From Owenia fusiformis (lineage: Eukaryota > Annelida > Polychaeta > Sabellida > Oweniidae): a stretch of 64,000 nucleotides of DNA. Positions 3,051-62,790 of the stretch are shown here, piece after piece (positions within the stretch are counted from its first letter, which is position 1; each line of letters begins with the position of its first letter). A model generated the notes under the pieces. That model had not been told where the DNA came from and made no database searches. It worked only from the letters and a program-made list of their open reading frames with translations. The stretch is from contig CAIIXF020000012.1 of NCBI GenBank assembly GCA_903813345.2, positions 33,926,572-33,990,571 on the forward strand. Direction: 5' to 3'. A program made the translations under genes and the position numbers.

Positions 3051-3350
3051 GGATTTTTGAGATCTCTCATCCCAGCTCATATTTCATTTAATTGGGGTCA
3101 TTAAACTTGTGTACACATGCCTGTGCTAATATCTGCTGTTAAATACAATGCCATTTATGTAATGTATTGACATTAGGTAAATGATTACATGATAACTGTC
3201 ACACTTATTGACAGTTATAAGTCTTCCCATCTGATGTGCTCAGATCACAGAATATGCCGCATAATATCAGAGCATGTTTCAGGTGAAACAGAAAGATGCT
3301 ATGAGTATCAGAATGACAAATAACAATAAGTAATCATATTTTAAAACTTT

Positions 3351-3354
3351 CCAG
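3351..3354 (+). promoter_or_regulatory. Putative 3' splice acceptor (CCAG) directly before the LRR exon
   Basis: A pyrimidine-rich stretch ending in CCAG precedes AATGTGATG, six bases before the first ATG of the LRR gene. The paralogue has the same arrangement (TTTTCCAG then AATGTGATG, ending at 47991). The reading frame is open across the junction (AAT GTG ATG). The large exon may therefore be joined to an upstream exon carrying the 5' UTR or a better signal peptide. Confidence 0.45.
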
Positions 3355-3360
3355 AATGTG

Positions 3361-6300
3361 ATGTTGAAGTCACTGGTGATGATAATCCTACACCAAGCGA
3401 TCATTCCCCCTACGGCCGATGGTGTTGTGTTAAACTTGGCTCGGAGAAAACTAACCAATGTAACAGCACACATGTTCAACCCCAGCATAACCAATTTATC
3501 GCTCCATATGAATAACATATTAGAGATAGAGCCTGGGACGTTTTCTGGTTTGCAATCTTTGGAAGAGTTACAGTTGTCTAGAAATAAACTGGCAATATTG
3601 ACAGCTGGTATGTTTGGTATTCTTAAATCACTAACATTTCTGTTTCTATCTGATAATGATATATCTCAAATAGAAACAGATACATTTTCTGGTTTGCAAT
3701 CATTGGAACAATTGGACTTATCTGGCAATAAACTCACAATATTGACACCTGGTATGTTTGGTAATCTTACATTACTAACACAGCTGATTCTATCTAAAAA
3801 TGATGTATCTAAAATAGAAAAAAAAACATTTTCTGGTTTGCAATCTTTGGAACTATTGAACTTGTCTTACAATAAACTCACAATATTGACATCTGGTATG
3901 TTTGGTAATCTTACATTACTAACAAGGCTGGATCTATCTCGTAATGATATATCTCAAATAGAAACAGAAACGTTTTCTGGTTTGCAATCATTGGAACAAT
4001 TAGATTTGGGTTTCAATGAACTCACAATATTGACACCTGGTATGTTTGGTAATCTTACATTATTAACACAGCTGATTCTAATTTTTAATAAAGTATCTAA
4101 AATAGAAACAAAAACATTTTCTGGTTTGCAATCTTTGGAACTATTGAACTTGTATTACAATAAACTCACAATAGTGACACCTGGTATGTTTGGTAATCTT
4201 ACATCACTAAGAAGGCTGGATCTATCTGTTAATGATATGTCTCAAATTGAAACAGAAACGTTTTCTGGTTTACAATCATTGGAAGAATTAGATTTGTCTT
4301 CCAATGATTTCACAAGATTGACACCTGGTATGTTTGGTAATCTTACATTACTAACAAGGCTGGATCTATCTAGTAATGATATATCTCATATAGAAACAGA
4401 AACGTTTTCTGGTTTACAATCATTGGAACAATTAGATTTGTCTTACAATGAATTCACAAGATTGACACCTGGTATGTTTGGTAATCTTACATTACTAACA
4501 AGGCTGGATCTATTTAGTAATGATATATCTCATATAGAAACAGAAACGTTTTCTGGTTTGCAATCATTGGAACAATTAGATTTGGGTGGCAATCCTCTAG
4601 GAATATTGACTTCTGATATGTTTGGAAATATTACATCACTAACAAAGCTGTTGCTAGCTAAGAGTTATATATCTCAAATTGAAACAGATACATTTTCTGG
4701 TTTGCAATCATTGGAAGAATTAGACATGAATCACACTAAGATCACAATATTGACTTCTGATATGTTTGGTAATCTTGCATCACTAACAATGCTGTTTCTA
4801 TATGGTAATGAAATATCTCAAATAGAAACAGATACCTTTTCTGGTTTACAATCATTGGAACAATTAGACTTGCGTTACAATAGACTAACAATATTGACTC
4901 CTGATATGTTTGGTAATCTTACATCACTAACAATGCTGTTTCTAAAAGGTAATGATATATCTCAGCTAGAAACAAATACCTTTTCTGGTATGCAATCATT
5001 GGAACAATTAGATTTGTCTTACAATGAACTCACAATATTGACACCTGGTATGTTTGGTAATCTTACATCACTAACAAGGCTGTCTCTAAGAGGTAATGAT
5101 ATATCACAGTTAGAAACAGATACCTTTTCTGGCTTGCAATCATTGGAAGAATTAAATTTGGGTTACAATAGTCTCACAATATTGACTCCTGATATGTTTG
5201 GTAATCTTACATCACTAACAAGGCTGTTTCTATATGGTAATGATATATCTCAGTTAGAAACAAATACCTTTTCTGGTTTGCAATCATTGGAACAATTAGA
5301 TTTGTCTAACAATAAACTCACAATATTGACTTCTGATATGTTTGGTAATCTTGCATCACTAACAATGCTGTTGCTATCTCGTAATCCTATATCTCAAAAT
5401 GAAACAGATCTGTTTTCTGGTTTACAATCATTGGAAGAATTATATTTGTCTTTCATTGGACTCACAAGATTGACACCTGGTATGTTTGGTAATCTTACAT
5501 CACTAACAAGGCTGTTTCTAAAAGGTAATGATATATCTCATATAGAAAAAGATACCTTTTCTGGTTTGCAATCATTGGAACAATTAGATTTGTCTTACAA
5601 TGAACTCACAATATTGACACCTGGCATGTTGGGTAATCTTACATCACTAACAAGGCTGGATCTTAAAGGTAATGAAATATCTCAAATAAAAACAGATACA
5701 TTTTCTGGTTTGCAATTATTGGAATACTTAGACTTGGGTTACAATAATCTTAAACATATTCCGGCCGATATTTGCCAAGGTATGCCGAATCTTAATGAAT
5801 TAGACCTGTGGGGAAATGCCATCTCAATATCTGGGCCATCTCAATATACCATCTATGATATAACAGTTACTTTAATAAGGGACAATGACCTGTGCTTCTA
5901 CCCTCAAACAGATGAAGTATCCATTCAATCAACAATAGCAACCATTCAACCAACACAGACATCCAATCAAACAACACAGACATCCATTCAACCAACACAG
6001 GCATCTGCTCAACCAACACGGACATCCAATCGACCAACACAGGTATCTTCTCAACCAACACAGGCATCCATTCAACCAACACAGACATCCAATCGATCAA
6101 CACAGGCATCTGCTCAACCAACACAGACATCCATTCAACCAACACAGACATCCAATCGACCAACACAGGCATCTGATCAATTAACACAATCATCCATTCA
6201 ACCAACACAGGCATCTTCTCAACCAACACAGGCATCCATTCAACCAACACAGACATCCATTCAACCAACACAGGCATCTTTTCAACCAACACAGGCATCC

Positions 6301-7167
6301 ATTCAACCAAAACAGACATCCATTCAACCAACACAGGCATCTTTTCAACCAACACAGGCATCCAATCAACCAACACAGCCATCCATTCAACCAACACAGA
6401 CATCCAATCGACCAACACAGGCATCTGATCAATTAACACAATCATCCATTCAACCAACACAGACATCTTCTCAACCAACACAGGCATCCATTCAACCAAC
6501 ACAGACATCCATTCAACCAACACAGGCATCTTTTCAACCAACACAGGCATCCATTCAACCAAAACAGACATCCATTCAACCAACACAGGCATCTTTTCAA
6601 CCAACACAGGCATCCATTCAACCAAAACAGACATCCATTCAACCAACACAGGCATCTTTTCAACCAACACAGGCATCCAATCAACCAACACAGCCATCCA
6701 ATCAACCAATACAGGCATCCATTCAACCAACGCAGACATCTGCTCAACCAACACAACCATCCACTCAACCAACACAGACGTCTAATAAACCAACACATGC
6801 ATCCAATCAACCAACAAAACCATCCATTCAACCAACACAGGCATCCGCTCAACCGACACAGGGATCCACTCAACCAACACATGCATCCGATCAACCAACA
6901 CAGCCATCCACTCAACCAACACAGCCATCCTCTGAGACAACAGGGTCATATTTTGGATCTTCCCTATCACATGATAATCCCATAATCATTGGCTTAGCAT
7001 GTGGGATTTCAGCGTTATGTGTAAGTATCATTATTCTTTTAAGTATCGTACTCTACCTTCTGAAAACAAGACAGTCAACTACGTCTGGTCGACCAAGTGA
7101 AAGTACCGGAGATAATATGTATGCGAAATCAGATGAAGAATTGAAACATGAGTATCTGTTTATGTAA
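3361..7167 (+). CDS. LRR receptor with mucin-like heptad stalk, TM helix and YxxM-type tail (copy 1)
   Basis: A single open frame of about 1268 residues, probably a type I cell-surface glycoprotein. In order: a short hydrophobic N-terminus (weak signal peptide); residues about 24-830 with roughly 33 LRRs of 24 residues, arranged as 16 double units containing TFSGLQSLE and MFGNLT; an end cap with one DICQG and one NDLC cysteine; residues about 855-1190 of Pro/Thr/Gln/Ser heptads such as IQPTQAS; a transmembrane segment containing IIIGLACGISALCV; and a tail of about 35 residues ending HEYLFM. The double units carry about a dozen NLT or NIT sequons. No Cys-rich LRR N-cap is present. YLFM fits YxxM (PI3K SH2 docking in known receptors) and also the YxxPhi sorting signal. 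The layout resembles platelet GPIb-alpha in principle, but I see no orthology. I chose the ATG at 3361; an upstream exon is possible. The ligand is unknown. Confidence 0.85.
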   Translation: MLKSLVMIILHQAIIPPTADGVVLNLARRKLTNVTAHMFNPSITNLSLHMNNILEIEPGTFSGLQSLEELQLSRNKLAILTAGMFGILKSLTFLFLSDNDISQIETDTFSGLQSLEQLDLSGNKLTILTPGMFGNLTLLTQLILSKNDVSKIEKKTFSGLQSLELLNLSYNKLTILTSGMFGNLTLLTRLDLSRNDISQIETETFSGLQSLEQLDLGFNELTILTPGMFGNLTLLTQLILIFNKVSKIETKTFSGLQSLELLNLYYNKLTIVTPGMFGNLTSLRRLDLSVNDMSQIETETFSGLQSLEELDLSSNDFTRLTPGMFGNLTLLTRLDLSSNDISHIETETFSGLQSLEQLDLSYNEFTRLTPGMFGNLTLLTRLDLFSNDISHIETETFSGLQSLEQLDLGGNPLGILTSDMFGNITSLTKLLLAKSYISQIETDTFSGLQSLEELDMNHTKITILTSDMFGNLASLTMLFLYGNEISQIETDTFSGLQSLEQLDLRYNRLTILTPDMFGNLTSLTMLFLKGNDISQLETNTFSGMQSLEQLDLSYNELTILTPGMFGNLTSLTRLSLRGNDISQLETDTFSGLQSLEELNLGYNSLTILTPDMFGNLTSLTRLFLYGNDISQLETNTFSGLQSLEQLDLSNNKLTILTSDMFGNLASLTMLLLSRNPISQNETDLFSGLQSLEELYLSFIGLTRLTPGMFGNLTSLTRLFLKGNDISHIEKDTFSGLQSLEQLDLSYNELTILTPGMLGNLTSLTRLDLKGNEISQIKTDTFSGLQLLEYLDLGYNNLKHIPADICQGMPNLNELDLWGNAISISGPSQYTIYDITVTLIRDNDLCFYPQTDEVSIQSTIATIQPTQTSNQTTQTSIQPTQASAQPTRTSNRPTQVSSQPTQASIQPTQTSNRSTQASAQPTQTSIQPTQTSNRPTQASDQLTQSSIQPTQASSQPTQASIQPTQTSIQPTQASFQPTQASIQPKQTSIQPTQASFQPTQASNQPTQPSIQPTQTSNRPTQASDQLTQSSIQPTQTSSQPTQASIQPTQTSIQPTQASFQPTQASIQPKQTSIQPTQASFQPTQASIQPKQTSIQPTQASFQPTQASNQPTQPSNQPIQASIQPTQTSAQPTQPSTQPTQTSNKPTHASNQPTKPSIQPTQASAQPTQGSTQPTHASDQPTQPSTQPTQPSSETTGSYFGSSLSHDNPIIIGLACGISALCVSIIILLSIVLYLLKTRQSTTSGRPSESTGDNMYAKSDEELKHEYLFM
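5920..6932 (+). repeat. 21-bp coding tandem repeat (PTQ heptads) with a 252-bp higher-order unit
   Basis: About 48 copies of a 21-bp unit encode heptads of the form xQPTQ(A/T)S. A block of 12 heptads (252 bp) that includes the rare NRPTQASDQLTQSS combination occurs twice in succession near 6150-6640, which shows recent duplication inside the array. Several frames on both strands stay open here only because the unit contains few stops in any phase. Confidence 0.9.
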
Positions 7168-8724: not shown

Positions 8725-8880
8725 ATTGAGACATGGGCGACTACAATTTAGGCCATGGTAGGATGAATTTATATCGCCATAGCAACAAATTATTTTTTTC
8801 CGTTCTATGACGTAATAAGTAGATTTACCTGAATGTAATTCAATTGATAAGAAGTTTTATAGTTTTACACGAATAAAAAC

Positions 8881-9320
8881 ATGTCAGTTATGAATGAGTT
8901 GAAAACAGTTAGTTGTTTGACATGTTAATTGTGAACTTTGTCATGATGGTTACTGGTCATTTGTGATGTATTTTCATAATGAAGAATACATGTCAGTTAT
9001 GAATGAGTTGAAACAGTTAGTTGTTTGACATGTTAATTGTGAACTTTGTCATGATGGTTACTGGTCATTTGTGATGTATTTTCATAATGAAGAATACATG
9101 TCAGTTATGAATGAGTTGAAACAGTTAGTTGTTTGACATGTTAATTGTGAACTTTGTCATGATGGTTACTGGTCATTTGTGATGTATTTTCATAATGAAG
9201 AATACATGTCAGTTATGAATGAGTTGAAACAGTTAGTTGTTTGACATGTTAATTGTGAACTTTGTCATGATGGTTACTGGTCATTTGTGATGTATTTTCA
9301 TAATGAAGAATACATGTCAG
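8881..9320. repeat. Tandem array, four near-identical 108-bp units
   Basis: Units begin ATGTCAGTTATGAATGAG at 8881, 8990, 9098 and 9206, with a partial unit at 9314. The last three are essentially identical, which points to recent amplification. No coding frame is conserved. Confidence 0.95.
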
Positions 9321-10019
9321 TTAGGAATTCCTTCATAATGTTAACGTAAACTATGAATGCTTTTATAAAAAGCATGTCATAGTACCAACCATAAAAAGGA
9401 TTCTTTAAAAGAAAATATGTCAGTTTTCAATATTGTCATATTAAGAATATGATACTATTTGTGAAAATTCTCATCATGAGAACGTGGCATTTGTGGATAT
9501 GATTGTCACAATGAAAACGTACGATGTACAAATTGTGTTACAAATAAAAAGGCGAAGACATCTCATTTGTGAATGTTGTCTTGATGTTACTTGTTAATAT
9601 TTTCATTATAAAAATATTTGCCAATTTTGAAATGATGTCACTTCTCAATATTGGCATATCATATATGCCATTTATCAACATTGTCATATTGAAAATATTT
9701 CATTGTGTAAAATCTAAGAAATGAAACCATGTTTGTAAATAGTGATGTTATTGAGATAATTTTTCTAAAAAATGTTGAATTTATATACAGCTTTTATATA
9801 GTGGTGAACGAGTTAATACGTGTTGATACAACTATACATCCATATTAAACATATAAACACTCGATAGGTACTCCATAGATAATATATATATGTAGAAACC
9901 ATGTTTGTAAATAGTGATGTTATTGAGATAATTGTTTATGTAAAATTGTGTTGGTAAATTTATTTACGGCTTTTATCTAGTTGTAAACGAGTTTTTACGT
10001 TTATGATACAATTACTGTA

Positions 10020-25990: not shown

Positions 25991-26948
25991 GAGCACATTG
26001 ATAGTAGGCACTAATTATTAATTACTGATCAATAACTGACTTACTGATTATCGAGACCGATTAAACTTCAAAGGGCTTATTACAAATGACACGGCTGGAA
26101 TATAATCTCTTGTCTAAATAAAATCAAAGCTTTGATATAATTTCGAATATTTTGTCATTATGATGAAAAGTTGGATGTAATTTAGATGCGAAACATGAAA
26201 AGAAATATAATTCAAGTTAGGCAACTTTTAGAGAAAATATTTGTATATTCTGAACCGTCAAGAACGGCAATCATTTGAAACTTGCCATGATTAAGCTTTA
26301 GTCATTATTTTTTCTTGGTGATACATGTATGTCTCGCATGACAAGAATAAATATGAGTACATTCAAGTAACATGTCTTATCATGTCCCCCCCATCCGTTC
26401 ATTCCTCCCTCCGTTCAATTATAATTTGTTTGTATTATCTTTTTTTGAAACGTATGGAAACTAACTTTAAAAAGCCAATTTAGGCAATAATATCATTAGA
26501 ATTGTGATAATAACGTCCCTTCTACCTTTTATTACAGATCGTGTAGACAATTGTTGCCTGATTTATAGCGAAAGCATTGACTTTTGCACGTTGGTGACGA
26601 TGCGGCTTTTCTAATATCATATATTTTATCATATCATATCTTAGAAGCGTATAAGTTCAAAAAATACTGGAAGTCCTAACACATTTTGCCATGTACTGCG
26701 CCTATTCATTTGGCAATTCAGTTGTAAACTTTCTCTTGAAAAAATATTTGTTTATAGGCCTGTGATATAGCAGTGCGCAGTAAGAACTACTTAAATTCGA
26801 TCACGTGGTGTAAGGGGAATATTTTCAGTGGTTTTGACTGCCACGTTTTAAAATCTTTACGGCCCAATCCATCTCTCACAGTTGAAATAATGTCGACTCT
26901 CAAAAGGTGAGTGCGAGTCGATCACCTGTTACTTTTAGATATTCAATT
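25991..26948. other. Intergenic, no gene recognised
   Basis: AT-rich with no frame of note on either strand and no clear repeat. The right edge abuts the first ACACCCCAG element. Confidence 0.4.
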
Positions 26949-27430
26949 ACACCCCAGTCACATTTCCTACGGCGACCTTGCGGTCTATCATTTCTGCGGC
27001 CAGTAACATTTCTACGCTCGCCGTGGAATTTCTGCGCTTTCATACTTTTGCAGTCACATTCCCCACGGCAGCCGCACGGTGAATTTTAAATTTCTGTTAA
27101 TAAATAATACTTTTTTCATTTTATTTACATCGGGACAATTTATAAATGTTATTCATAGTAATATCAAATGAAAAGTGATCGTGAAACATTGACAAATAAT
27201 GATTCAATCTTGTTGAGCCAGTTGATTTCTACGGGGACCTCAGAAATGAACAAATATTATAACTCCGAGTTATAATTTCTCCGGTGACACTGCAGCCTGT
27301 AAAAAACTGGATTCGCCGTACGGAGGCCGCAAGGCGAGCGTAGTTTTTCTACGCGCGCCGCAGAAATACACTGATTTAATTGATCTGCGGTCAACGCACG
27401 CCCTCCGTACGACAAATGTGACTGGGGTGT
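26949..27430. mobile_element. ACACCCCAGTCACATTT-ended element, copy 1 (tandem with copy 2)
   Basis: ACACCCCAGTCACATTTCC at the left pairs with AAATGTGACTGGGGTGT at the right. The element is about 482 bp, with GC-rich ends (CTACGCTCGCC, CGCAAGGCGAGCGTAG) and an AT-rich middle. Copy 2 begins two bases after it ends, in the same orientation. Confidence 0.85.
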
Positions 27431-27431
27431 A

Positions 27432-27923
27432 ACACCCCAGTCACATTTTCTACGGCGACCCTGCGGTCTATCATTTCTGCGGCCAGTAACATTTCTACGC
27501 TCGCCGTGGAATTTCTGCGCTTTCATAATTTTGCAGTCACATTTCCCACGGCAGCCGCACGGTGAATTTTAAATTTCTGTTGATAAATAATACTTTTTTT
27601 CATTTTATTTACATCGGGACAACTTATAAATGTTATTCATAGTGCTAGGATGTAATATCAAATGAAAAGTGATCGTGAAACATCGACAAATAATGATTCA
27701 ATCTTGTTGAGCCAGTTGATTTCTACGGCGACCTCAGAAATGAACAAAAATTATAACTCCGAGTTATAATTTCTACGCCTTCCCTGCGGCCTGTAAAAAT
27801 CTGCATACGCCGTATGGAGGTCGCAAGGCGAGCGTAGTTTTTCTACGCTCGCCGCAGAAATTCACCGATTTAATCGATCTGCGGTCGACTTGCGGCCGTC
27901 GTCCGACAAATGTGACTGGGGTG
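27432..27923. mobile_element. ACACCCCAGTCACATTT-ended element, copy 2
   Basis: Same ends and internal order as the copy at 26949-27430. The last base of the right end is changed (GGGGTGG in place of GGGGTGT). A head-to-tail pair sharing almost no spacer suggests either insertion next to an existing copy or a local duplication. Confidence 0.85.
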
Positions 27924-28762
27924 GTAGCTACCGTATATTCACCTTCCCTCAAGTCAGCTCATGAATTTTATAATTAGCAAACTAGAAATCTCTTACGTCA
28001 GAGTAGAGCAGATCTTAACACATTAGAAGTTAATGTAAATCGTGACGGAAACGGGTTAATTCTATTGTCAAATTATGTTGAGTAGTTATAATATTAATGA
28101 TAAATGTCATGGAATTTAATAATTATACTCACATCTATATTCCCCCTTCTTGTTAGACTCCAGATTGAAAATCTGGAGTCTATTGTTTTTGCCTGTTTTA
28201 TTTTTATTTTTATTAGACTCCAGATTGAAAATCTGGAGTCTATTGTTTTTGCCAGTATTCTTATTAGACTCCAGATGTAAATCTGGAGTCTATTGTTTTC
28301 GTCAGTATTCTTCTTTATTATTCTTTATTATTCTTTCCCAGTTTTCTCGATAACCATAACGCTTCCAATAAATATTCACTTATTCCAAATAAGTGTTTTT
28401 ATGAACATAGCTTCTTGTTTATTATCACAGTCACATTCTTCATTTCTTAAAGCAGAGACGTACACAGCAGAAGAACACTTCAAATATATTTTCTGTGTTA
28501 ATACAAGTTTATGAAATAATATTATTAATACTATACTAGTATTCACACTTTATCAGTTTATATTGCTATATTTGGAAATATTACATATATAAATAAATTT
28601 TATATATGTTGTGGAACTGTTAACAATATATATTGTTCGCCCTACATTTGGACACTTCGGGATAACCGTAAGGATTTGGACTACGTCTACCGTCATTCGG
28701 TGAGTGTAGTGATTTAATAACTTTGATTACGTATATAATAGTATATATGTACAAATACAACC

Positions 28763-29249
28763 ATGAGTAAAATACCCGTTTTGATATTTGGACACTCATT
28801 AATACACTGGCTCAACATTTATCAAATGAAATGTAAAAACAATCTGGGACTATCTTTAACCCAATTTGACTTGATTTTTCGTGGTATTAGAGGTGGAACA
28901 TTTGAGTGGTCTCCTAAATCACGATCCAGATTTCAGAAGAAAAGTTTAGTCGCCTATTTAACAGATATGATGGTAAAATCGGACCCTCGTATAGTTTACT
29001 TACAATTAGGTGGAAATGACTTGGATAATCCCAACTTTAACATTGAAAAAATATTCACGGCAATCAAAAGTTTCGCCGAATTTATTGCAGAAGGTAAAGG
29101 TCGTTTGCGTTGGTCACGTATTTAAGAGATTAAAACCACGCATTGGTTTCGACGATTATGAAAGAGCACGCTTGGCCCTTAACTTCCCTAACGTGCTGCT
29201 TATGGCGGCTTATACATTATGTGCCACTTTTGGTAGCAATGTCTTTTAA
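28763..29249 (+). pseudogene. SGNH/GDSL-hydrolase-like fragment, frameshifted
   Basis: The first 111 codons contain block I (FGHSL, Ser12), a block II glycine region (RGIRGG, 41-45) and block III (LGGND, Asn85), in the right order and spacing for an SGNH hydrolase. After about residue 111 the coding trace continues in the +1 frame (CVGHVFKRLKP, then FDDYERAR) and fades by 29249. The C-terminal DxxH block is not visible. SGNH domains of this type are carried by DIRS/Ngaro-type and some LINE retroelements and are also found in stand-alone genes. Here the fragment lies inside a Helitron-like repeat, so I infer a captured piece of a retroelement or host gene. Activity is not expected. Confidence 0.55.
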
Positions 29250-29689
29250 TATATGCTGCTTATGGCGGCTTACGCAGTTATGTACGCAAAATATTACTGT
29301 AGTATATGAGATATGAACTCATGATCTGAATAGTTATGTCTTGGATGTTTTTCATGAATGATATGACTTATATCGTACAATGAACTTGATTGGCCTTTTC
29401 AGTTATAATGGCAGTGAGTGGGTTAACATTTGGAGTTTTACTTTGTGCATACTTTTGCTCACATTTATTAAGGTTCTGGGGATTTCGAATTGAAATTGTT
29501 TATGGGTTTCCTTGTTTAGACCCAACTTGCATAATTATGTATAGCGTCTTGTTGCACTTATGATGTGCAAAATAAAATATTGTCAGCAACATATGCTTTC
29601 TTGTGTTATCATCTTTATGCAACGAGCAAGTACCTAACAGCAATCTGAGCGACTGAATCATAAAGATAATTATTCAGTCAATTTATGTC

Positions 29690-31900
29690 TAGTATCTAGT
29701 TCCTCGGAAATTGGGTCAAATTTTTATCTAGGTCAAAGGTCAAGAACTAGGTCAAATCTTACATTTTCAACATTCTGTCATTTATCTTCGTCGTTGTTTA
29801 TCGTAACTCCTAAATCTTTTATTCATCATGTAGCTTAAAAAAAGCCAAAGCAAAGACATGACATTAGATTTTTGATTACCTTACCGATTTTGAAATATGG
29901 CGTCCAGAAAGTAGGTCAAAATGAAAAGTTCTCTGAGTTATGGATTAAAGGTAGAATTTACTCAGGAATTCGAATCTGCAAACCAAATTTCGATCCGACT
30001 TCCGGTTCGAAAGTTATGGTGTTTTGAAATTTCGGGAAAAATCGATCTGATGGTATCCTGATAGAGTCGATAGTAGCGAAGAAAATATTGAAAAATGCAC
30101 CCATCCTTCCTTCCTTTCCTGTCTGATCCTATCCTTCCTATCTACCCTTCCTTCCTATCCTATCCTTCCTTCCTATTCTATCCTATCGTATCCTTCTTTC
30201 CTATTCTATCCTATCGTTCCGTCCTATTCTTTCCTATCCCTTCTATCTATCCTTCCTTCTCATCATTTCCTTCCTATCCTTCATAACCTATCCTATCCTT
30301 CTTTCTTATCCTATCCTATCATTCCTTCCTATTCTATCCTATTTTTCCTCCCTTTTCAATCCACCCATCCATCTTTTTCTGGATGACTCAGCTTATTTTT
30401 GATGACTCGGCTTATTCTGGATGACTCGGCTTATTCTGTATGACTGGGCTTAAAAAAGTCTAGATCTGGAGTCTGAAATTGAACTTGTTCAATTTCCAAA
30501 GTCTAGTTATTTTTCTCTACACGTTTTCTCCTTAACTAGAAGACATTGAGTCAAGTCCTTTATATGGTCAATTTAGGTCCAGTATCTAGTTTCTCGGAAA
30601 TTTGGTCAATTTTTTATCTAGGTCAAAGGTCAAGAACTAGGTCAAATCTTACATTTTTAACATTCTATCAATTATCTTCGTCGTAATTTATCGAAACGTC
30701 TTTGTCTTTTTTTCATCATGTAGCTTAGAAAAAGCCCTTTCATAATGTTCCTGTTTTTTTTAATTACTCTTACCAATTTTGAAATATGGCGTCCAGAAAG
30801 TAGGTCAAAACAAAAGTTCTCCAAATTCAGGGTATGAGTTATGAATTAGGGGTAGAATTTTGTCAGAAATCTGAATCTGCAAACCAAATTTCGATCCTGG
30901 TTCGGAAGTTATGTCGTTTTAAAAGCTCAAAAATCGCTGCCCATGTTAAGTCAATGGGAAAAAAGATTTTTTTAAAGTGAAGAATACAAAATATAGACTG
31001 AGTTCAGCTTAATTTAATGAAAGCTTTTAAAAGAAGGGGACCTAAAAAGCCATCTAGCTTCAAAATTTGGACACCAACATGCCTAGGTCAAAATCTAGGT
31101 CAAATCCAAAGGTTTTCCTTATTTTTGCGATTCTGACACTACACTTCAATAATATTCTTCGAAATTGTGTATACATGTAGCCAAGAGTGTGCTAATAGTG
31201 GTAGCCTTTTGCCGTCAGAAAGTATTTTGATCCACTTTTGAGATATGGTGTCCAAAAAGTAGGTCAAAATAAAAAGTTCTCCAAATTTAACGTATGAGCT
31301 ATAAATATAAATTTTCCCAGGAATCCGAATCTGCAAACCAAATTTCAATCCGACTTACTGTTCGGAAGTTATGGCGTTTTGAACGCTCAAAAATCACTAA
31401 ATTTGGTGCCTCATGTTATGTCAATGAGAAAAAATATATAAACTGATATAAACTGAGTACAGCTTAACATTCTGAAAGCCTTTAAAAGAAGGGGACCTCG
31501 AAGGCTATCTAGCTTTAAAATTTGGACACCAAAATGCCTAGGTCAAAATCTAGGTCAAATTCAAAGTTTTTCCTTATTTCTGCGATTCTGACATTACACT
31601 TAAATGATTTGCTTCAAAATGTTGTGTACAGGTAGCAAAGAGTGTGCTTATAGTGTTAGCCTTCTGCCGTCATAAAGTATTTTGACGCACTTTTGAGATA
31701 TGGTGTCTGAAAAGTAGGTCAAAATAAAAAGTTCTCCAAATTTAACGTATGAGTTATGAATTTAGGGTAGAATTTTCTCAGGAATCAGAATCTTTAAACC
31801 AAATTTCGATCCTACTTCTAATTAGATAGTTATAGCGGTTTGAAGTCTCAAAAAGTCGATATGATGATATCCCCATGTTAAGCCAATGGAGTCGAAGATA
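29690..31900. repeat. Diverged tandem units with AGGTCAAAGGTCAAGAACTA blocks
   Basis: Blocks with GTCAAGAACTAGGTCAAATC occur near 29745 and 30635. Blocks with ATATGGCGTCCAGAAAGTAG occur near 29895 and 30785, with diverged forms near 31245 and 31695. Each is followed by CAAACCAAATTTCGATCC-like and GGAAGTTATGGCG-like text. They form the body of the Helitron-like units. No open frame runs through them. Confidence 0.7.
30095..30360. repeat. CTATC/CTTCC microsatellite
   Basis: An irregular run of CCTATCCTTC-type words on the + strand. It lies inside the first Helitron-like unit, upstream of the GATGACTCGGCTTA repeats. Central microsatellites are common in short Helentron derivatives of insects and molluscs. 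Confidence 0.8.
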
Positions 31901-32047
31901 ACATTCTTAAGAGTTGTCTTAATGTCTATATTCTAGCTGACTCAGCTTTTTCTGAATGACTCAGCTTACAAGTATTTGGATGACTCAGCTTAAAAAAGTC
32001 TGAAATCTGGAGTCTTAAATTGAACTTGTTCAATTTACATGTCTAGT
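30508..32047. mobile_element. Helitron-like 3' unit, second copy
   Basis: It ends like the first unit. Repeated GATGACTCAGCTTA words are followed by AAATCTGGAGTCT, a hairpin AAATTGAAC/GTTCAATTT, eight bases, and CTAG|T (32043-32047). It has the same AGGTCAAAGG-type body as the first unit but no separate TTAGACTCC left end. It could be a second element that lost its 5' end or a tandem extension. Confidence 0.5.
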
Positions 32048-34504
32048 TATATATATTGTTTTGGGGAATCAAATGTTTCCTGTACATTTTCAAATTACGC
32101 CGACTGTACAAAACCCCATGTTTAGTTCTTGACTGTCAAAATGTCAACACCCCATGGTAATCTTAAGTTCGTGTACTATTTTCTCATGGTGTGAAGAAGG
32201 GGGTACGGCTTAACCTTGAAGAAAAAGTATTTGACTCTCAAATCTGGGCCAAAGGTGCGTTACTTTCACTTACGTTCAGCCACCTATTATACCACATGAA
32301 AATGTTCCTTTTATGTCTGCTGAAGAATTTGACAATGGTTACGTGAGTGATGACTAGTGAGTGGTGATAAGGCCGTTCATGTATGCTTTGAGACAATGTA
32401 CCAGCTGCAGAGTTGCTTGTTTTACAAACGATCGAATATTTGAAGAGACTTATCTCTTGAAAGGCCTATGGGCGTTCTTTTAAATATCAAACTTTTTAGA
32501 GAACTTTCAGGATATTTTGGACGTAGACCTACAAGAGAGAAACTCCGGCAATTCAAGCCCGTAGTCAGAATTTACCTGCAGGGGCGGTTTTACGAAGGAG
32601 GAGCTTTTTGACAGTTTTGGCAAAAAAATCATACGAAAAGTGTTCAGAATGGTGTAAAACTGCATGATTTTGAGAAAATTTCTGGCAGGAGGGGGGGGAG
32701 CCGCCACTCCTTCAGAGCACATTCTCCTTCAAAGCCCTGCTTTGACGTCACTGATGTTCATCGACTACTCAGTGCAGCGGTCAAATGAGTACACTTTGGA
32801 CTTTGGGGAAAGGTGAATAACAAAGAATAAAGTTTCTCAATTCAATGAAGCCATTCAATTCATCAAATATTTTAGTATGTATACATTTTAGCCAAATACG
32901 TTATGAATGTATTCATTTAAAAAGTTCTACAATTGAATCCATTTAGTTTATTCATAAAGTGACGAGCCAAAAAGCAAAATAGAACAGCGCATGTGCAACT
33001 CAAAATCTCAAAAGAGGCTCTTGAAGGTATTCACCACGTTATTTAAATAAAAAACACACATTACAAAAAACACATTATATATCCAGATACTTCTAAATCG
33101 GGAACTTTGGTGAAACAACATTCTTGAGATGACATATATGATTATATGTTTTTAACAAATTAGATTTTATCATTACAGAAGAAGTAAAGAAATTCCCACA
33201 GGACGTTAATGCCCTTTGCGCTTCTTCTTAATCTATTTGCGAAAAATGTATAAAGAAATTTAAAAAGTTTAAAAATGCAATATGGATTCACATTCTGGAA
33301 CAACTGCTGATTAAAGGAGAACTCAATGTTACAACATTATATATCTTATTTTAGAAACATCATATGAGACCAACAGCCAAGAATTTTATTCAAATATTGT
33401 GAAGACATATGGAACATTTAGGTCAGAGAAAAATATGATATAACAGCGAAAAATAATTCAGTAAAAAATAAGGGAAAGAGAGAATAACTAGTTCATCTCG
33501 AAACAGAAAACTGGTTCGTTTGTGCATTAAAAATATTTGTACAGTCAATCATGGCATCAGTCAATGTAAGGGTAAGTACTATAATCTATTGCATACTGTT
33601 ATAACCTATAAGTAAATTGAACATGTTATGCGACAAACTATGTAAATAAGATAGATATAATTCTGAAAATGTTTTTTTCACAGTACAGGAAATAAATATG
33701 ATAAAATTGTTGAAAAATGAAGGAGTATGAAGGGAGAAATATTTTTAGTTTTTTTAAATGAATAATTAATTTTTTGCAGCATGTATTTCCCTCGCCCTAT
33801 GGGCTGTGGGCAATACATACTGCAAAAATCATTGAAAGATGAACAGGTATCGCCCTCCATAGAGTTAAATATTTGGCAATGCTTAATATTGGGATACAAA
33901 GAAATGATAATCCTGCATATATATTTCTTTATTGGGATAATATCTGCACTTCTTACGAATGAAAAAGACCAACCGTGAACTAGTTATATTAGCACATATT
34001 TTGTGAATTCTTCTACGGTTAGAAATCTCCACATTTTTCTCCAAAATCATCTCTTGAAATATTCAATAGAGAGTTTAAGATTAGTGTAAATAGCCCATAT
34101 ATGCATACATATACTATGTATTGGGTAACGTCATAGTATCACATGACAGCAACGTGACATAAATACTATGTTATTGCTCTCTGTGGTATAGTGGCGTAGC
34201 CAGGATTCGATGACCAAGGGTTCTTTGTTTTATGTTATCAACAAAGCCCCCCGCTTCATTGGGGTTCCTCACATGAAATCATTTCTTCAATTATTTTGAC
34301 CACCATGTATGATATGTACAGTGTAAAGAAAAAACTGTTTTTAGGGCTGGACAAAATAAATTAAAGATTTTCTATATTAAAATAGTTTTCGCTGAATCTT
34401 TTACTGAATAGATATCCTGAAATCTGAAGGCAAAATCATACATTTTAATAAAACACTTGTTTAACGAAATCCAAATCAAGAGTTAACAAGGGCAAATCCC
34501 AACA
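32048..34504. other. Intergenic, no gene recognised
   Basis: Long AT-rich stretch. A GGCGTAGCCAGGATT word at about 34192 resembles a dispersed-repeat motif also seen at about 57103 (GGCGTAGCCAGGGGG). Frames at 32507-32722 and 33781-33978 have no recognisable domain. Nothing else is supported. Confidence 0.4.
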
Positions 34505-38024: not shown

Positions 38025-39718
38025 TCACGATCCTGTCTTGCCATGGTACACTTTCTGCTGGAGAGTTGACCAGTGCTTCAGAGTTTTTCTCACAATCTTC
38101 CCCTTTTTGTTTGCTGTGTTGTGGCCTCTGATATTGACAGCCCTGGCATCTTCCAAGTTGCAATCTCTCCTCAATTCCCTAGGAACCATGTCGCCTCTTC
38201 TGTCCACTTGGTCAATCAGTGCATTTTGCATTGTAGGGTACCTCATTCTCATCAAGTTATGGAGAATGCAGCATGTCTTGACTATCAGCCTCGCTGTGGA
38301 TGGCTTATGGTTCATCGTTGAGAGGAGTACCTGAAATGTTATTATGCGTTAAATTGAATTAATTTGAAAATACGGATTAATAGTTAAACTGTTATAGGTC
38401 GAATGTGGAACTCAGTTGGTTCCAATTTATGCGCATCTTTCAAATTATTTATCAAACAAAACATACTATTTTCATGTCTCAATTAGCGGAAGTTCGAATG
38501 AAGTCTCATTTACTCGAAGTCATAAACGTATCTAGATAGTCCCAGGAACTTGGAGTTTAACTGTTTGTTTCGCAGACAAATATTATAAATTACAATGTAC
38601 CTGAAATCGGTTGGCCAAAATTCCAAAGGCGTTTTCTTAAACCCTCCTAGCCCTCGATAACCGGTAGTTTAGAACTCTTTCCTCTCTAGTGAGGGTTCTA
38701 TGTCAATAGGGCTTCTGCATGTGATCACTGAGGCTGAATGCGTCATCCCCTACCAAGAAAAAAGGCATATCAACGGTGTCGTTGGGAAATGGCTGTTGGT
38801 GTGGAAATGCGATCGAACCATCCTGCACCATCTCCAAGAATTCCGATGCATTATAGATCCTGGCATCTCCACTTGAACCATATCCTGAAATTATACAAGA
38901 GTAAGAGGATAAAATATTGTCAGTATACATTGCAAATATAGCTATAATTGTATTAAATCTATATAATTACAAAATTAATGCAGTAACGTATGTAGAGTTT
39001 ACTCACCACCCAGATCACACCACACGAACTTGTAGTCTGAGTCGACAATTCCCAGTAAGATGATGCTGTAGAAACCCTTATAATTATAATATAAGGAACC
39101 AGAGCTATTAGGCTTTCTTATGGCTATGTGTTTGCCATCAATTGCAGCAACGCAATTTGGAAAGTTCCACTTCTCGAGGAAACCATCAGCCAATTGTTTC
39201 CATTCTTCAGGTGTGGAGGGGGCAGTCATGACCTCATCAACATATTCGTCACATATAGCTTGACAGACTTCTCTTACCACTACAGAGAGGGTATTCTCAG
39301 CAACCCGCCAGGAGTACTGCATGTCAGAGTACTTGGCACCAGAAACCAGGTGGCGAATAGTGGCAGCTAGTTTGAGGCCTGGACCTAAAGGCTCTATGTA
39401 CCAGCTATGTTGTTTCCATAGCCGAGGACAGACCCTCTCAAAGATTTCGTCATATATTTCTGCTGGCATACAGATGAACTTTTTGAATGTTCTGGGGTCC
39501 TCTCTTCTCAGCTCCACCATGAGCTGATCATATATGCCGAATTGGCGCCGTCTCTCTGGATTCAACCATTGTCTCCTCCAGATGCCACGTCCTCTGGCTC
39601 CCCTTCTCCGCCTAAAACGGCCTCTGATGAACTCATGAATGTTAAGTTGCTGCGTTAAAACTTCTTGCTGGGCCATAGCAGCCACATACTGCAGCCTCAG
39701 TCGATCTGTGTCTTCCAT
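38025..39718 (-). pseudogene. HARBI1-like Harbinger transposase, three exons, two stops
   Basis: Exon 1 (39718-39007) starts MEDTDRLRLQYVAAM and contains the first catalytic Asp in AAIDGKHIAI. It ends at a GTGAGT donor. Exon 2 (38884-38601) joins in frame at GGYGSSGDA and carries the second Asp in FFLVGDDAF and the Glu in ENAFGILANRF. It ends CAG|GTACAT. Exon 3 (38330-38025) reads VLLSTMNHKPSTARLIVK through CCILHNLMRMRYP to the natural stop. The DDE triad is intact. Exon 2 has an in-frame TGA after HMQKPY and a TAA just before ENAFG, so this copy should not make a full enzyme. Splice sites and residue order match the family closely. An ATG at 39757 is an alternative start. Confidence 0.85.
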
Positions 39719-40195
39719 GACAAAAGAATTATTTGATTTAATTTGGTATTCTCTCAATTATTCAGCATAACGTAGATCCAATTCGTAAGTATTCGTTCCA
39801 CTGCGTACAAGGTTGCAAACTGCCGCAATGGTTCGTGATGGGATCGTCGTCAGTCGCTTGATATGCAAATTATGGGGATACGACCTTATCCCCAGCGACC
39901 TGTAACGTCACTTGATGAAGCCAATGCGAAGGTTAACCGATCGTTAACGCATTGAAACGAATTTCAACGAATGACACACGAAACTTTTATTCGCTGCAAT
40001 TTTTTGAACATGTTCAAAATTTTCCGACGAAAAAGACTAATTTCAACCGAGGTAAACGCTGACAAACACATCTATACGAACACTGCGACGTACTGTCACG
40101 AACTCGTACTAGTGAGAACGAATTTGACTAATTTCCTATTCGCCACTATACGCAAGTTGACGTAAAGGGGTTTTCGTTCATATGTGAGGGGGGCT

Positions 40196-47850: not shown

Positions 47851-47987
47851 AGGTATTTAAGTAGTAAACTAATTGGACATATTACTTTCTATTGAACATG
47901 GTAATATTGGGTAATCCGATAACTGATAAGTCAAAAATATCCAAAATCGTTTACAAATAACAATAAATAGTCATATTTTAAAATTTT

Positions 47988-47991
47988 CCAG
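47988..47991 (+). promoter_or_regulatory. Putative 3' splice acceptor (CCAG) before LRR exon, copy 2
   Basis: TTTTCCAG followed by AATGTGATG, as in copy 1. The upstream 50 bases (ACAAATAACAATAA...) are also shared with copy 1 and then similarity is lost, which suggests that the intron 3' end was part of the duplicated unit. Confidence 0.45.
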
Positions 47992-47997
47992 AATGTG

Positions 47998-50900
47998 ATG
48001 TTGAAGTCACTGGTGATGATAATCCTACACCAAGCGATCATTCCCCCTACGGCCGATGGTGTTGTGTTAAACTTGGCTCGGAGAAAACTAACCAATGTAA
48101 CAGCAGACATGTTCAACTCTAGCATAACCACTTTATTGCTCCATATGAATAACATAGCAGAGATAGAGCATGGGACGTTTTCTGGTTTGCAATCATTGGA
48201 AGAGTTAAACTTGTCTGAAAATAAACTGGCAATATTGACACATGGTATGTTTGGTAATCTTAAATCACTAACATTTCTGTTTCTATCTGATAATGCTATA
48301 TCTCAAATAGAAAGAGATACCTTTTCTGGTTTGCAATCATTGGAACAATTAGACTTGTCCTACAATAGACTCAAAATATTGACACCTGGTATGTTTGGTA
48401 ATCTTACATTACTAAGAATCCTGGGTCTATCTCATAATTATATATCTACAATAGAGGCAGATACATTTTCTGGTTTGCAGTCATTGGAACAATTAGACTT
48501 GTCTTACAATAGACTCAAAATATTGACACCTGGTATGTTTGGTAATCTTACATTACTAACAAGGCTGGTTCTATCTCATAATTATATTTATGTAATAGAA
48601 ACAGATACATTTTCTGGTTTGCAGTCATTGGAACAATTAATTTTGTCTTTCAATAGAATTTCAAGATTGACACATGGTATGTTTGGTAATCTTACATTAC
48701 TAACAAGGCTGGGTCTAATTGCTAATGTTATCTCTCAAATAGAATCGGACACCTTTTCTGATTTGCAATCATTGGAAAAGTTATATTTGTCTAAAAATAG
48801 ACTGACAATATTGACAACGGGCATGTTTAGCAATCTGACATCACTGGTAGAACTTTGGCTTCGCAGCAATGAAATAGATAAGTTAGAATCTGATACCTTT
48901 TCTGGTTTGCAATCATTGGAAAAGTTATACCTGTATGATAATAAACTTACAATATTGACAACGGGCATGTTTAGCAATCTAACATCACTGGTAGAACTTT
49001 GGCTACACACCAACGAAATAGATAAGTTAGAATCTGATACCTTTTCTGGTTTGCAATCATTGGAACGATTATACTTGTTAAACAATAAACTGACAATATT
49101 GACACATGGTATGTTTGATAATCTTGCATCACTGGCAGAGCTGTCTCTAACTAGTAATGATATATTCCAAATAGAATCCAATGCTTTTTCTGGTTTGAAA
49201 TCATTGGAAAAGTTATACTTGAATGGAAACAAACTTTCAATATTGACAACGGGCATGTTTAGCAATCTAACATCACTGGTAGAACTTTGGCTACGCAGCA
49301 ACGAAATAGATAAGTTAGAATCTGATACCTTTTCTGATTTGCAATCATTGGAAACGTTGATCTTGAATGACAATAAACTGACAATATTGACAACTGGTAT
49401 GTTTGGTAATCTTACATCACTGAAAAAGCTGTCACTGGATAGTAACAATATATCTCAAATAGAATCGGATTTCTTTTCTGGTTTGCAATCATTGGAAGAA
49501 TTAGACTTGTCTTACAATAATCTTGAACATCTTCCGGCCGACATATGCCAAGGCATGTCAAATATTAATGAATTAACCCTGATTGGAAATAATATAACGT
49601 CTGTGTCAGATGAATACATCAATAATATAACTGCAATAAGGGACAATGACCTATGCTCAAGGAACATAGAGACCACCTCTTCATCTACCATTTTCCCAAC
49701 AGAAGACATCACTGTACCATCTACACAATTGTACATTCAAACAGCGGAAGTATCCATTCAATCAACAATAGCATCGATTCAACCATCACAAAAATCCATA
49801 AAACCAACACATGCATCTTATCAACAAACAGAGGCATCCATTCAACCAACACAGGCATCCGCTCAATTAACACAATCATCCATTCAACCAGCACATGCAT
49901 CTAATCAACCAACACAAGCATCCACTCAACCAACACAGGCATCCATTCAACCAACACAAGCATCCACTCAACCAACACAGGAATCTCCTCAACCAACAGA
50001 GGCATCTTCCCAACCAACACAGGCATCCATTCAACCAACACAGGCATCTGCTCAACCAACACATACATCCAATCAACCAACAGAGGCATCCGCTCAATTA
50101 ACACAATCATCCATTCAACCAGCACATGCATCCAATCAACCAACACAAGCATCCACTCAACCAACACAGGCATCCATTCAACCAGCACATGCATCCAATC
50201 AACCAACACAAGCATCCACTCAACCAACACAAGCATCCACTCAACCAACACAGGAATCTCCTCAACCAACAGAGGCATCTTCCCAACCAACACAGGCATC
50301 CATTCAACCAACACAGGCATCTGCTCAACCAACACATACATTCAATCAACCAACACAGGCATCCGCTCAATTAACACAATCATCCATTCAACCAACACAG
50401 GCATCTCCTCAACCAACACAAGCATCCACTCAACCAGCACAGATATCTCCTCAACCAATACAAGCATCCATTCCACCAACGGGGGCATCTGCTCAACCAC
50501 CACATGCATCCAATCAACCAACACTGGCATCCGTTCAACCAACACAGACATCCAATCAACCCACACAGGCATCCGTTCAATCAACACAATCATCCATTCA
50601 ACCAACAAAGGCATCCAATCAACCAACACAGGTATCCACTCAACCAAAACATGCATCCAATCAACCATCACAGGCATCAATTAAACCAACACAGGCACTC
50701 GCTCAACCGACACAGTCATCTAATCAACCAACGCAGGCATCCACTCAACCAACACAGGCATCCATTCAACCAACACAGCCATTCTCTGAGACAACAGGGT
50801 CATATTTAGTATCTTCCCTATCACATGATAATTCCATAATCATTGGCTTAGCTTGTGGGATTCCAGCGTTAGGTGTAATTATCATTATTCTTTTATGTAT

Positions 50901-51021
50901 CGTATTCTACCTTCTGAAAACAAGACAATCAAATACGTCTGTTCGAACAAGTGAAAGAACCGGAGATAAAACATGGGCGGAATCAGATGAAGAATTGAAA
51001 CATGAATATCTGTTTATGTAA
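47998..51021 (+). CDS. LRR receptor with mucin-like heptad stalk, TM helix and YxxM-type tail (copy 2)
   Basis: An open frame of about 1007 residues with the same plan as the gene at 3361-7167. The first 35 residues are almost identical (MLKSLVMIILHQAII...). Then come about 21 LRRs in 10 double units, with motifs such as TFSGLQSLEKLYL and MFSNLTSLVELWL; an end cap with DICQG and NDLC; about 50 Pro/Thr/Gln/Ser heptads; a TM segment containing IIIGLACGIPALGVIIIIL; and a tail ending HEYLFM. Compared with copy 1 it lacks six LRR double units, and its middle LRRs carry a distinct SNEIDKLESDTF type. The tail tyrosine found in copy 1 at NMYAKS is replaced by Trp (KTWAES), while the terminal YLFM is kept. 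No stops or frameshifts, so it is probably functional. Confidence 0.85.
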   Translation: MLKSLVMIILHQAIIPPTADGVVLNLARRKLTNVTADMFNSSITTLLLHMNNIAEIEHGTFSGLQSLEELNLSENKLAILTHGMFGNLKSLTFLFLSDNAISQIERDTFSGLQSLEQLDLSYNRLKILTPGMFGNLTLLRILGLSHNYISTIEADTFSGLQSLEQLDLSYNRLKILTPGMFGNLTLLTRLVLSHNYIYVIETDTFSGLQSLEQLILSFNRISRLTHGMFGNLTLLTRLGLIANVISQIESDTFSDLQSLEKLYLSKNRLTILTTGMFSNLTSLVELWLRSNEIDKLESDTFSGLQSLEKLYLYDNKLTILTTGMFSNLTSLVELWLHTNEIDKLESDTFSGLQSLERLYLLNNKLTILTHGMFDNLASLAELSLTSNDIFQIESNAFSGLKSLEKLYLNGNKLSILTTGMFSNLTSLVELWLRSNEIDKLESDTFSDLQSLETLILNDNKLTILTTGMFGNLTSLKKLSLDSNNISQIESDFFSGLQSLEELDLSYNNLEHLPADICQGMSNINELTLIGNNITSVSDEYINNITAIRDNDLCSRNIETTSSSTIFPTEDITVPSTQLYIQTAEVSIQSTIASIQPSQKSIKPTHASYQQTEASIQPTQASAQLTQSSIQPAHASNQPTQASTQPTQASIQPTQASTQPTQESPQPTEASSQPTQASIQPTQASAQPTHTSNQPTEASAQLTQSSIQPAHASNQPTQASTQPTQASIQPAHASNQPTQASTQPTQASTQPTQESPQPTEASSQPTQASIQPTQASAQPTHTFNQPTQASAQLTQSSIQPTQASPQPTQASTQPAQISPQPIQASIPPTGASAQPPHASNQPTLASVQPTQTSNQPTQASVQSTQSSIQPTKASNQPTQVSTQPKHASNQPSQASIKPTQALAQPTQSSNQPTQASTQPTQASIQPTQPFSETTGSYLVSSLSHDNSIIIGLACGIPALGVIIIILLCIVFYLLKTRQSNTSVRTSERTGDKTWAESDEELKHEYLFM
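49745..50790 (+). repeat. 21-bp coding tandem repeat (PTQ heptads) with a 231-bp higher-order unit
   Basis: About 50 heptads of the form xQPTQAS. A block of 11 heptads that starts QLTQSSIQPAHAS and includes TQESPQPTEAS recurs near 49865 and 50096, with a partial third copy. The higher-order unit differs from that of copy 1 (252 bp), so each array was rearranged after the gene duplication. Confidence 0.9.
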
Positions 51022-62289: not shown

Positions 62290-62790
62290 ATCTCAACTTT
62301 GACTGGGCGTGACATGGATCGATCATGAGGCTTGACTAGGATGTGACATTTTTCAATTTTTATGCTTGACTTGGTGTGATATTACTCGATCTTTATGCTT
62401 GACTTGGTGTGATATTACTCGATCTTTAGGCTTGACTTGGTGTGATATTACTCGATCTTTAGGCTTGACTTGGTGTGATATTACTCGATCTATGCTTGAC
62501 TTGGTGTGATATTACTCGATCTTTAGGCTTGACTTGGTGTGATATTACTCGATCTTTATGCTTGACTTGGTGTGATATTACTCAATCTTTAGGCTTGACT
62601 TGGTGTGATATTACTCGATCTTAAGGCTTGACTTGGTGTGATATTACTCGATATTTATGCTTGACTTGGTGTGATATTACTCGATCTTTAGGCTTGACTT
62701 AGGGTGAAAAGTCTGACTTGATTAGACACTTTTCAATCCCACGGCTTGACAAGGCGTGACATTCCTCAATTACAAGGCTTGACTTGGATG
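62290..62790. repeat. 33-bp minisatellite in the receptor intron
   Basis: About 12-14 units of GCTTGACTTGGTGTGATATT followed by ACTCGATCTTTAG. The centre (about 62390-62700) is nearly uniform; the edges are worn. It starts about 260 bases after the splice donor at 62027. Confidence 0.9.

Follow-up and report, generated by a model that had tools for sequence, protein, structure and literature searches.

Platelet GPIb-alpha, a component of the GPIb-IX-V complex that binds von Willebrand factor and has GPIb-beta as its partner, carries a few leucine-rich repeats (LRRs) flanked by the Cys-rich caps LRRNT and LRRCT. The available passages of PMC5021522 describe its LRR domain, mucin-like stalk, single transmembrane (TM) segment and cytoplasmic tail, and a macroglycopeptide of more than 30 nm that passes force from the LRR domain to the juxtamembrane domain. 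The same order was found in two genes, A and B, located in a stretch of 64,000 nucleotides from the annelid Owenia fusiformis (GenBank assembly GCA_903813345.2, contig CAIIXF020000012.1, positions 33,926,572 to 33,990,571, forward strand). This whole stretch is called the window, and coordinates refer to it. We favour, as an evenly balanced call, the interpretation that the products of both genes are type I single-pass receptors from a lineage-expanded LRR recognition family, probably immune or phagocytic, with uptake and signaling as output. GPIb-alpha, to which a first-pass annotation had likened the two proteins, is the closest layout among known relatives but not the same family. The likeness holds for the succession of LRRs, mucin stalk and TM helix, and membership was rejected on the caps: Pfam scans found no LRRNT, LRRCT or TIR match in A and B (E<=0.001) or in nine paralogs (E<=0.01), and only a family-specific C-cap with two Cys is present. 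The family also differs in its approximately 8 to 44 repeats, its stalk of tandem heptads and, in the window genes, a terminal YLFM. GPIb-alpha was not among the best 50 structural matches listed, which is no evidence against the likeness.

Toll-like receptors (TLRs) share with A and B an LRR solenoid ectodomain and a single TM segment, and TLR3 was among the best structural matches. Membership was nevertheless rejected because none of the 11 family proteins scanned has a TIR match; the low-complexity stalk and the tyrosine-motif tails are further differences. The genome holds a large TIR/TLR-like repertoire beside the family (123 matches to the TIR domain, many of them within long single frames), and by eye none of the matches listed falls at the loci studied. 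A second oweniid is Galathowenia oculata. The available text of PMC8609888 gives 39 TLRs for this annelid, and that of PMC4346834 reports a TLR expansion in the oyster.

A diverse LRR ectodomain on a stalk is also a point of likeness to the variable lymphocyte receptors (VLRs), and three of the paralogs end in a glycosylphosphatidylinositol (GPI)-like manner. The VLRs of lampreys and hagfish have a Thr/Pro stalk, LRRNT, LRRCT and a GPI anchor, and are assembled somatically from germline cassettes. In contrast, Pfam detected no LRRNT or LRRCT here, the assembled genome already has the LRR exon as an open frame and the window genes have a TM helix and a tail of 34 amino acids, so that membership was rejected on both caps and anchor. 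Plant LRR receptor-like proteins are lineage-expanded. Ve1 resembles A and B in being an LRR cell-surface receptor whose tail may hold a YxxPhi motif (PMC4049777, available passages), but the LRRs described here are of animal type and are followed by a mucin-like stalk, and there is no known relation. Amphioxus FrLRR is a functional precedent, since LRRs, bacteria and Grb2 are joined in one receptor. As described in the available passages of PMC10199209, this membrane receptor binds bacteria and promotes phagocytosis via Grb2; unlike A and B, it has a folate-receptor domain and Slit2-type LRRs, lacks a tail and is predicted to be GPI-anchored. Among the matches listed from the open-access PubMed Central literature, no title or abstract describes the present LRR-stalk family. 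The plan had been called undescribed-looking, which should be narrowed: LRR-TM receptors as such are known, and it is the combination of an own C-cap, a heptad stalk and differing tails that we could not match among those articles.

Layout and 5′ ends of genes A and B

Gene A lies in an open reading frame (ORF) spanning 3334-7167 (1277 codons) and gene B in one spanning 47971-51021 (1016 codons), both on the + strand. Counted from the ATG codons at 3361 and 47998, the products have 1268 and 1007 amino acids. Both show the order short hydrophobic N-terminus, 24-residue LRRs, C-cap, heptad stalk, TM helix and tail. The features are as follows, each with its basis (TRF, Tandem Repeats Finder; L numbers designate paralogous loci).

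3321..3354, +, gene A: branch-point-like 'taacaat' and 3′ splice acceptor (AG 3353-3354); four-copy alignment of A, B, L006 and L007
3355..7167, +, gene A: main coding exon (ATG 3361, stop 7165-7167); ORF and translation
3361..3423, +, gene A: signal-peptide-like N-terminus; hydropathy only (best hydrophobic 12-mer, mean Kyte-Doolittle 2.17)
3424..5745 (edges approximate), +, gene A: LRR array, about 33 repeats of 24 amino acids; TRF, Pfam and segmentation
5746..5895, +, gene A: family-specific C-cap with two Cys (residues 805 and 845); alignment of 16 caps
5896..6984, +, gene A: Thr/Ser/Pro/Gln stalk with 48 heptads in 5919-6930; TRF and segmentation
6985..7062 (edges by eye), +, gene A: TM helix; best 21-mer Kyte-Doolittle 2.69
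7063..7164, +, gene A: predicted cytoplasmic tail of 34 amino acids ending EYLFM (YLFM 7153-7164); translation
47960..47991, +, gene B: branch-point-like and acceptor sequence; four-copy alignment
47992..51021, +, gene B: main coding exon (ATG 47998); ORF and translation
48061..49518 (edges approximate), +, gene B: LRR array, about 21 repeats; Pfam, segmentation and AlphaFold2 solenoid
49519..49656, +, gene B: two-Cys C-cap; cap alignment and segmentation
49657..50838, +, gene B: heptad stalk with 49 heptads in 49748-50777; TRF and segmentation
50839..50916 (edges by eye), +, gene B: TM helix; best 21-mer Kyte-Doolittle 2.91
50917..51018, +, gene B: tail of 34 amino acids ending EYLFM; translation

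The first-pass annotation had read an LRR array, a heptad stalk, a TM helix and a tail ending HEYLFM in both genes, and ORFs, TRF, Pfam and hydropathy confirmed this order. At the DNA level, the LRRs are built of a 144-bp unit encoding two repeats (A, 3541-5747, 15.3 copies; B, 48178-49520, 9.3 copies) and the stalks of a 21-bp unit (A, 5919-6930, 48.2 copies; B, 49748-50777, 49.0 copies). The Pfam domain LRR_8 was matched with E=3.9e-186 in gene A and E=3.3e-109 in gene B. In the scaffold codons of the LRR units of A, B, L006 and L007, the mean proportion of nonsynonymous differences (pN) was 0.08 versus 0.45 for synonymous ones (pS), a pN/pS of about 0.17 in a sample of 67 of 117 units, which represents one of two LRR classes present in the YLFM group. 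The stalks have no stop in the coding frame, and the other two forward frames contain 3-5 each. Since pN is far below pS in the scaffold and the stalk frame is free of stops, the reading frames of A and B are not a product of chance. The far-upstream flanks of the two genes (L026:1-7311 and window 26532-34123) have several blocks in common, the four best-scoring at 93-95% identity, and the pair therefore looks like a recent segmental duplication.

A 'taacaat ... cag' sequence, resembling a branch point followed by an acceptor, lies directly 5′ of the main exon and is kept in A, B, L006 and L007. Its retention in four copies at this position makes at least one upstream intron likely. The main body of A and B is thus one exon of genes that are probably spliced at the 5′ end, where the earlier description of two uninterrupted genes did not hold. 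The codon that serves as ATG in A and B also encodes Met in L006, L007, L008 and L030, and Leu in most other copies compared. For the first eight codons after the acceptor, pN/pS was 0.20 in nine paralogs that have no Met in the first seven codons, a small sample in which splice-site constraint could contribute to the value. This ratio indicates that the codons are probably translated and that a short coding exon likely lies further upstream. When upstream regions were compared among 10 copies, though not for every pair, conserved blocks were found, among which no ATG-to-donor first exon common to the copies was recognized. Upstream of L021 and L025 (regions L034 and L036, respectively), the 5′ end of the LRR exon, including the acceptor and the signal-peptide codons, is tandemly repeated. 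L034 contains 30 copies and L036 contains 12 copies of CAGAATGTG, mostly every 99 bp and with the real exon included; these repeats may be alternative acceptors or a satellite born from the exon.

The paralog family and its ectodomain

The plan had been noted in A and B; searches of the genome (498 Mb in 525 contigs) showed that the two belong to a larger family. A single C-cap query produced 27 matches, B included, a number that is a lower bound because the query missed gene A. The tail query gave 5 matches, A and B included, and the N-terminal query 173, internal LRRs among them; among the matches listed, those that start in the first six residues of the N-terminal query are on contigs C2, C3, C5, C6, C7, C9, C10 and C12. 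Clusters and very recent copies exist in the family. In the same genome, a search for COX1 had no match, and PF16915, a linker domain specific to annelids, had 3 matches above the cut-off, one of them interrupted by a stop. Segmentation covered 22 of 27 sequences (A, B and 20 paralogs), leaving out L018, L019, L020, L032 and L033 (ORF without a cap or nothing behind it), and L040-L042 lie outside this set. Nineteen of the 22 genes have a TM segment and three a GPI-like hydrophobic end; L029, L030 and L031, on contig C2, are tail-less and finish in a hydrophobic stretch resembling a GPI signal. The number of LRRs across the 22 genes varies from about 8 to 44. These comparisons point to a family that keeps its outside plan while stalk units and tails differ by subfamily. 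On contig C6 (862500-888900), L021, L040 and L041 are three tandem copies about 12 kb apart. Their 625-codon ORFs are identical (0 differences), which points to a duplication of very recent date, to conversion or to an artefact of the assembly.

The absence of a Cys-rich N-cap, noted before, was borne out in the 11 proteins scanned by Pfam. The account of the LRR ends needs one correction, the addition of the two-Cys C-cap behind the LRRs, both Cys of which are invariant in 16 of 16 aligned family caps. The stalks, estimated earlier at about 50 heptads, agree with the copy numbers of 48.2 and 49.0 and are mucin-like by composition: that of A (368 amino acids) has fractions of 0.34 T+S, 0.14 P and 0.24 Q, that of B (394 amino acids) 0.33, 0.13 and 0.21, and neither contains Cys. 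Across the segmented genes the stalks measure 23-394 amino acids and are made of differing units, e.g., SIQPTQA, TQAIQPS, STLTSEP and TTQES. The pN/pS of the stalk coding frame was 1.20 in A and 1.03 in B. Purifying selection site by site is thus not apparent in the stalk, which is what one would expect of a region where nothing but composition and an open frame counts.

The repeat fits the 24-residue pattern LxxLxLxxNxLxxLxxxxFxxL of extracellular LRR proteins and the solenoid fold. An AlphaFold2 model of the gene B ectodomain, obtained with a two-sequence alignment with A, is an LRR solenoid with a mean predicted local distance difference test (pLDDT) of 86.5. Values below 50 were found at residues 1-18, 541-543 and 548-559, and the very end of the C-cap is therefore uncertain in the model. 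Foldseek ranked TLR3 first. With VIA-align 2, the highest scores were those of LRIG1 (Z 34.2, root-mean-square deviation 3.4, 416 aligned) and TLR3 (Z 32.7, 7.3, 541 aligned), followed by Lingo-1 (Z 31.8), LGR4 (Z 31.5) and a designed LRR protein (also 31.5). Among solved structures, the folds nearest to the model are mostly recognition ectodomains.

The concave positions of the solenoid, defined as residues 3, 5, 7, 8 and 10 of the LRR, are more variable than the rest: in four subfamilies the mean entropy was 2.48-3.05 bits at concave, 1.23-1.75 bits at other non-scaffold and 0.17-0.49 bits at scaffold positions. Nine paralog pairs were examined for selection on this face; three were identical, one (L013/L042) had no synonymous concave change and five were informative. 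The concave pN/pS was 1.33 for L009/L015, 0.70 for L011/L012, 0.44 for L030/L031, 0.65 for L029/L030 and 0.66 for L029/L020. As only L009/L015 exceeds 1, the ratios suggest diversifying selection on the concave face in that pair and do not show it in general.

Tails, output and competing interpretations

The tail end EYLFM is identical in all four intact copies of the window clade (A, B, L007 and L008), and L008 has a tail four residues shorter just before YLFM. This conservation lends real but weak support to the YLFM motif. Tails of other subfamilies contain several internal YxN and YxxI motifs: YVN, YENT, YEMI, YETI or YDMM in L009/L015/L023; YEEI, YEHI or YKHI, and YVN in L014/L017/L021; and YEVH and YMNP in L013/L016/L025. 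Compared with composition shuffles, YxN occurred 6 times versus 2.3 (P 0.02), YxxPhi 9 versus 4.1 (P 0.011) and YxxM 3 versus 0.6 (P 0.017), with uncorrected P values from 5000 shuffles; the 7 tails used include two that belong to the same subfamily. Readings of the tails as immunoreceptor tyrosine-based activation or inhibition motifs were dropped by eye, since spacing and the -2 residues do not seem to fit. A GLxxGI at the start of the TM segment is present in A, B, the YxN, YEEI and YMNP groups, L010 and L022, and not in L006, L007 and L008. Because it is common across groups, many TM segments look homologous, with tails that have diverged.

YxN is a Grb2 SH2 site, YEEI a Src-family SH2 site and YxxM a PI3K SH2 site, while YxxPhi is a clathrin-adaptor endocytosis signal. 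In the mechanism that we propose, which adds to the observed layout, family and fold model glycosylation, ligand, surface localization and phosphorylation as steps that we infer, an extended, O-glycosylated heptad stalk would hold the solenoid tens of nanometers above the membrane, and the concave face would bind a ligand, most likely microbial or non-self. Binding would cluster the receptor, and the tail would link it to the cell. In the sister subfamilies, phosphotyrosine motifs may recruit SH2 adaptors (YxN, Grb2; YEEI, Src-family kinases; YxxM, PI3K). In the window subfamily, the terminal YLFM would fit both a YxxPhi signal for the clathrin adaptor AP-2 and a YxxM site for PI3K, and the output would be uptake, by endocytosis or phagocytosis, together with signaling. 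An immune role is made more likely by the expansion of the family, the variable concave face and the SH2-type motifs in the sister tails. The interpretation as a whole draws support from the paralogs built alike, with their clusters and very recent copies, from the confidently modeled solenoid and its nearest folds, from the concave variability, from the excess of tail motifs over shuffles, from the FrLRR precedent and from the tails of three other subfamilies, which are under constraint (dN/dS of TM and tail 0.29-0.42 over six pairs, some of them with few substitutions).

Several observations weigh against this interpretation. Entropy was compared within the family only, with no outside LRR proteins as control, and LRR proteins commonly vary at their concave positions; the concave pN/pS was above 1 in one of the five informative pairs. 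Over five pairs within the window clade, the dN/dS of TM and tail was 0.68-1.23, as if constraint were relaxed; counts in the dN/dS comparisons were as small as 2 synonymous changes in a pair. L006 has two in-frame stops in its tail, with HEYLFM still readable behind them. Owing to these ratios and stops, no part of the account is weaker than YLFM: the terminal YxxM of the first-pass annotation is present as YLFM in A (7153-7164), B, L007 and L008, but is weakly supported. L011 and L012 have just 6-8 tail residues, and neither the start codon nor any upstream exon was located in the upstream comparisons. Finally, the available passages of PMC4049777 state that YxxPhi is an endocytosis signal and that mutation of its Tyr in Ve1 had no effect on function.

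The genes could instead encode adhesion or developmental receptors, in which the LRR face binds a self protein of a neighboring cell, the matrix or a gamete, the stalk is a spacer and the expansion stems from cell-type or gamete recognition and not from immunity. We regard this as rather unlikely. The nearest folds include the adhesion and growth-control proteins LRIG1, Lingo-1, LRRTM2 and chondroadherin, and GPIb-alpha is itself an LRR-mucin adhesion receptor (PMC5021522, available passages). Against it stand the identical tandem copies L021/L040/L041 and the span of about 8 to 44 LRRs. Such copies and so strongly varying a repeat number are seen less often in proteins of wiring or junctions.

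Still less probable is that YLFM is mainly a trafficking signal and that the window subfamily consists of endocytic or lysosomal scavenger-type glycoproteins without tyrosine-kinase signaling. LAMP and CD63 have C-terminal YxxPhi ends, a comparable tail logic, and YLFM stands at the very C-terminus in 4 of 4 intact copies despite the shortened tail of L008; however, five conserved residues are a weak argument where TM and tail are 60-83% identical, and the tails of the other subfamilies hold several internal motifs. That A and B are decaying recent duplicates under weak constraint, with little present function, is very improbable: the TM and tail dN/dS near 1, the stalk ratios of 1.20 and 1.03 and the stops in L006 would agree with it, but frames of 1268 and 1007 codons are open, the coding frame of the stalk is free of the stops that number 3-5 in either of the other forward frames and the LRR scaffold pN/pS is about 0.17.

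Returning to A and B as members of a recognition family, differing outputs on a common ectodomain plan are known from Ig-domain receptors of vertebrates, the KIR/LILR and FcR families. By analogy, and tentatively, since we hold it to be rather doubtful, A and B may belong to a paired-receptor-like system built on LRRs, in which an ancestral mucin-stalked LRR receptor may have radiated, in an annelid lineage, into subfamilies that keep the recognition plan and differ in output (PI3K/adaptor YLFM, Grb2 YxN, Src YEEI, near tail-less and GPI-like) while repeat number and concave face diversify. If these proposals are correct, an annelid uses for recognition a sizeable germline family of LRR proteins that lack TIR domains, bear a mucin-like stalk and end in differing tyrosine-motif tails. 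The paired-receptor principle would then have been invented independently, and a spiralian would offer a tractable recognition system other than TLRs.

Other features of the window

An ORF at 38999-39757 on the - strand matches the DDE_Tnp_4 transposase, and one at 58510-59811 on the + strand matches reverse transcriptase below the Pfam cut-off. Three further tandem arrays were found, at 8879-9328 (108 bp, 4.2 copies, 99%), 26949-27923 (494 bp, 2.0 copies, 91%) and 62319-62707 (33 bp, 11.8 copies, 91%).

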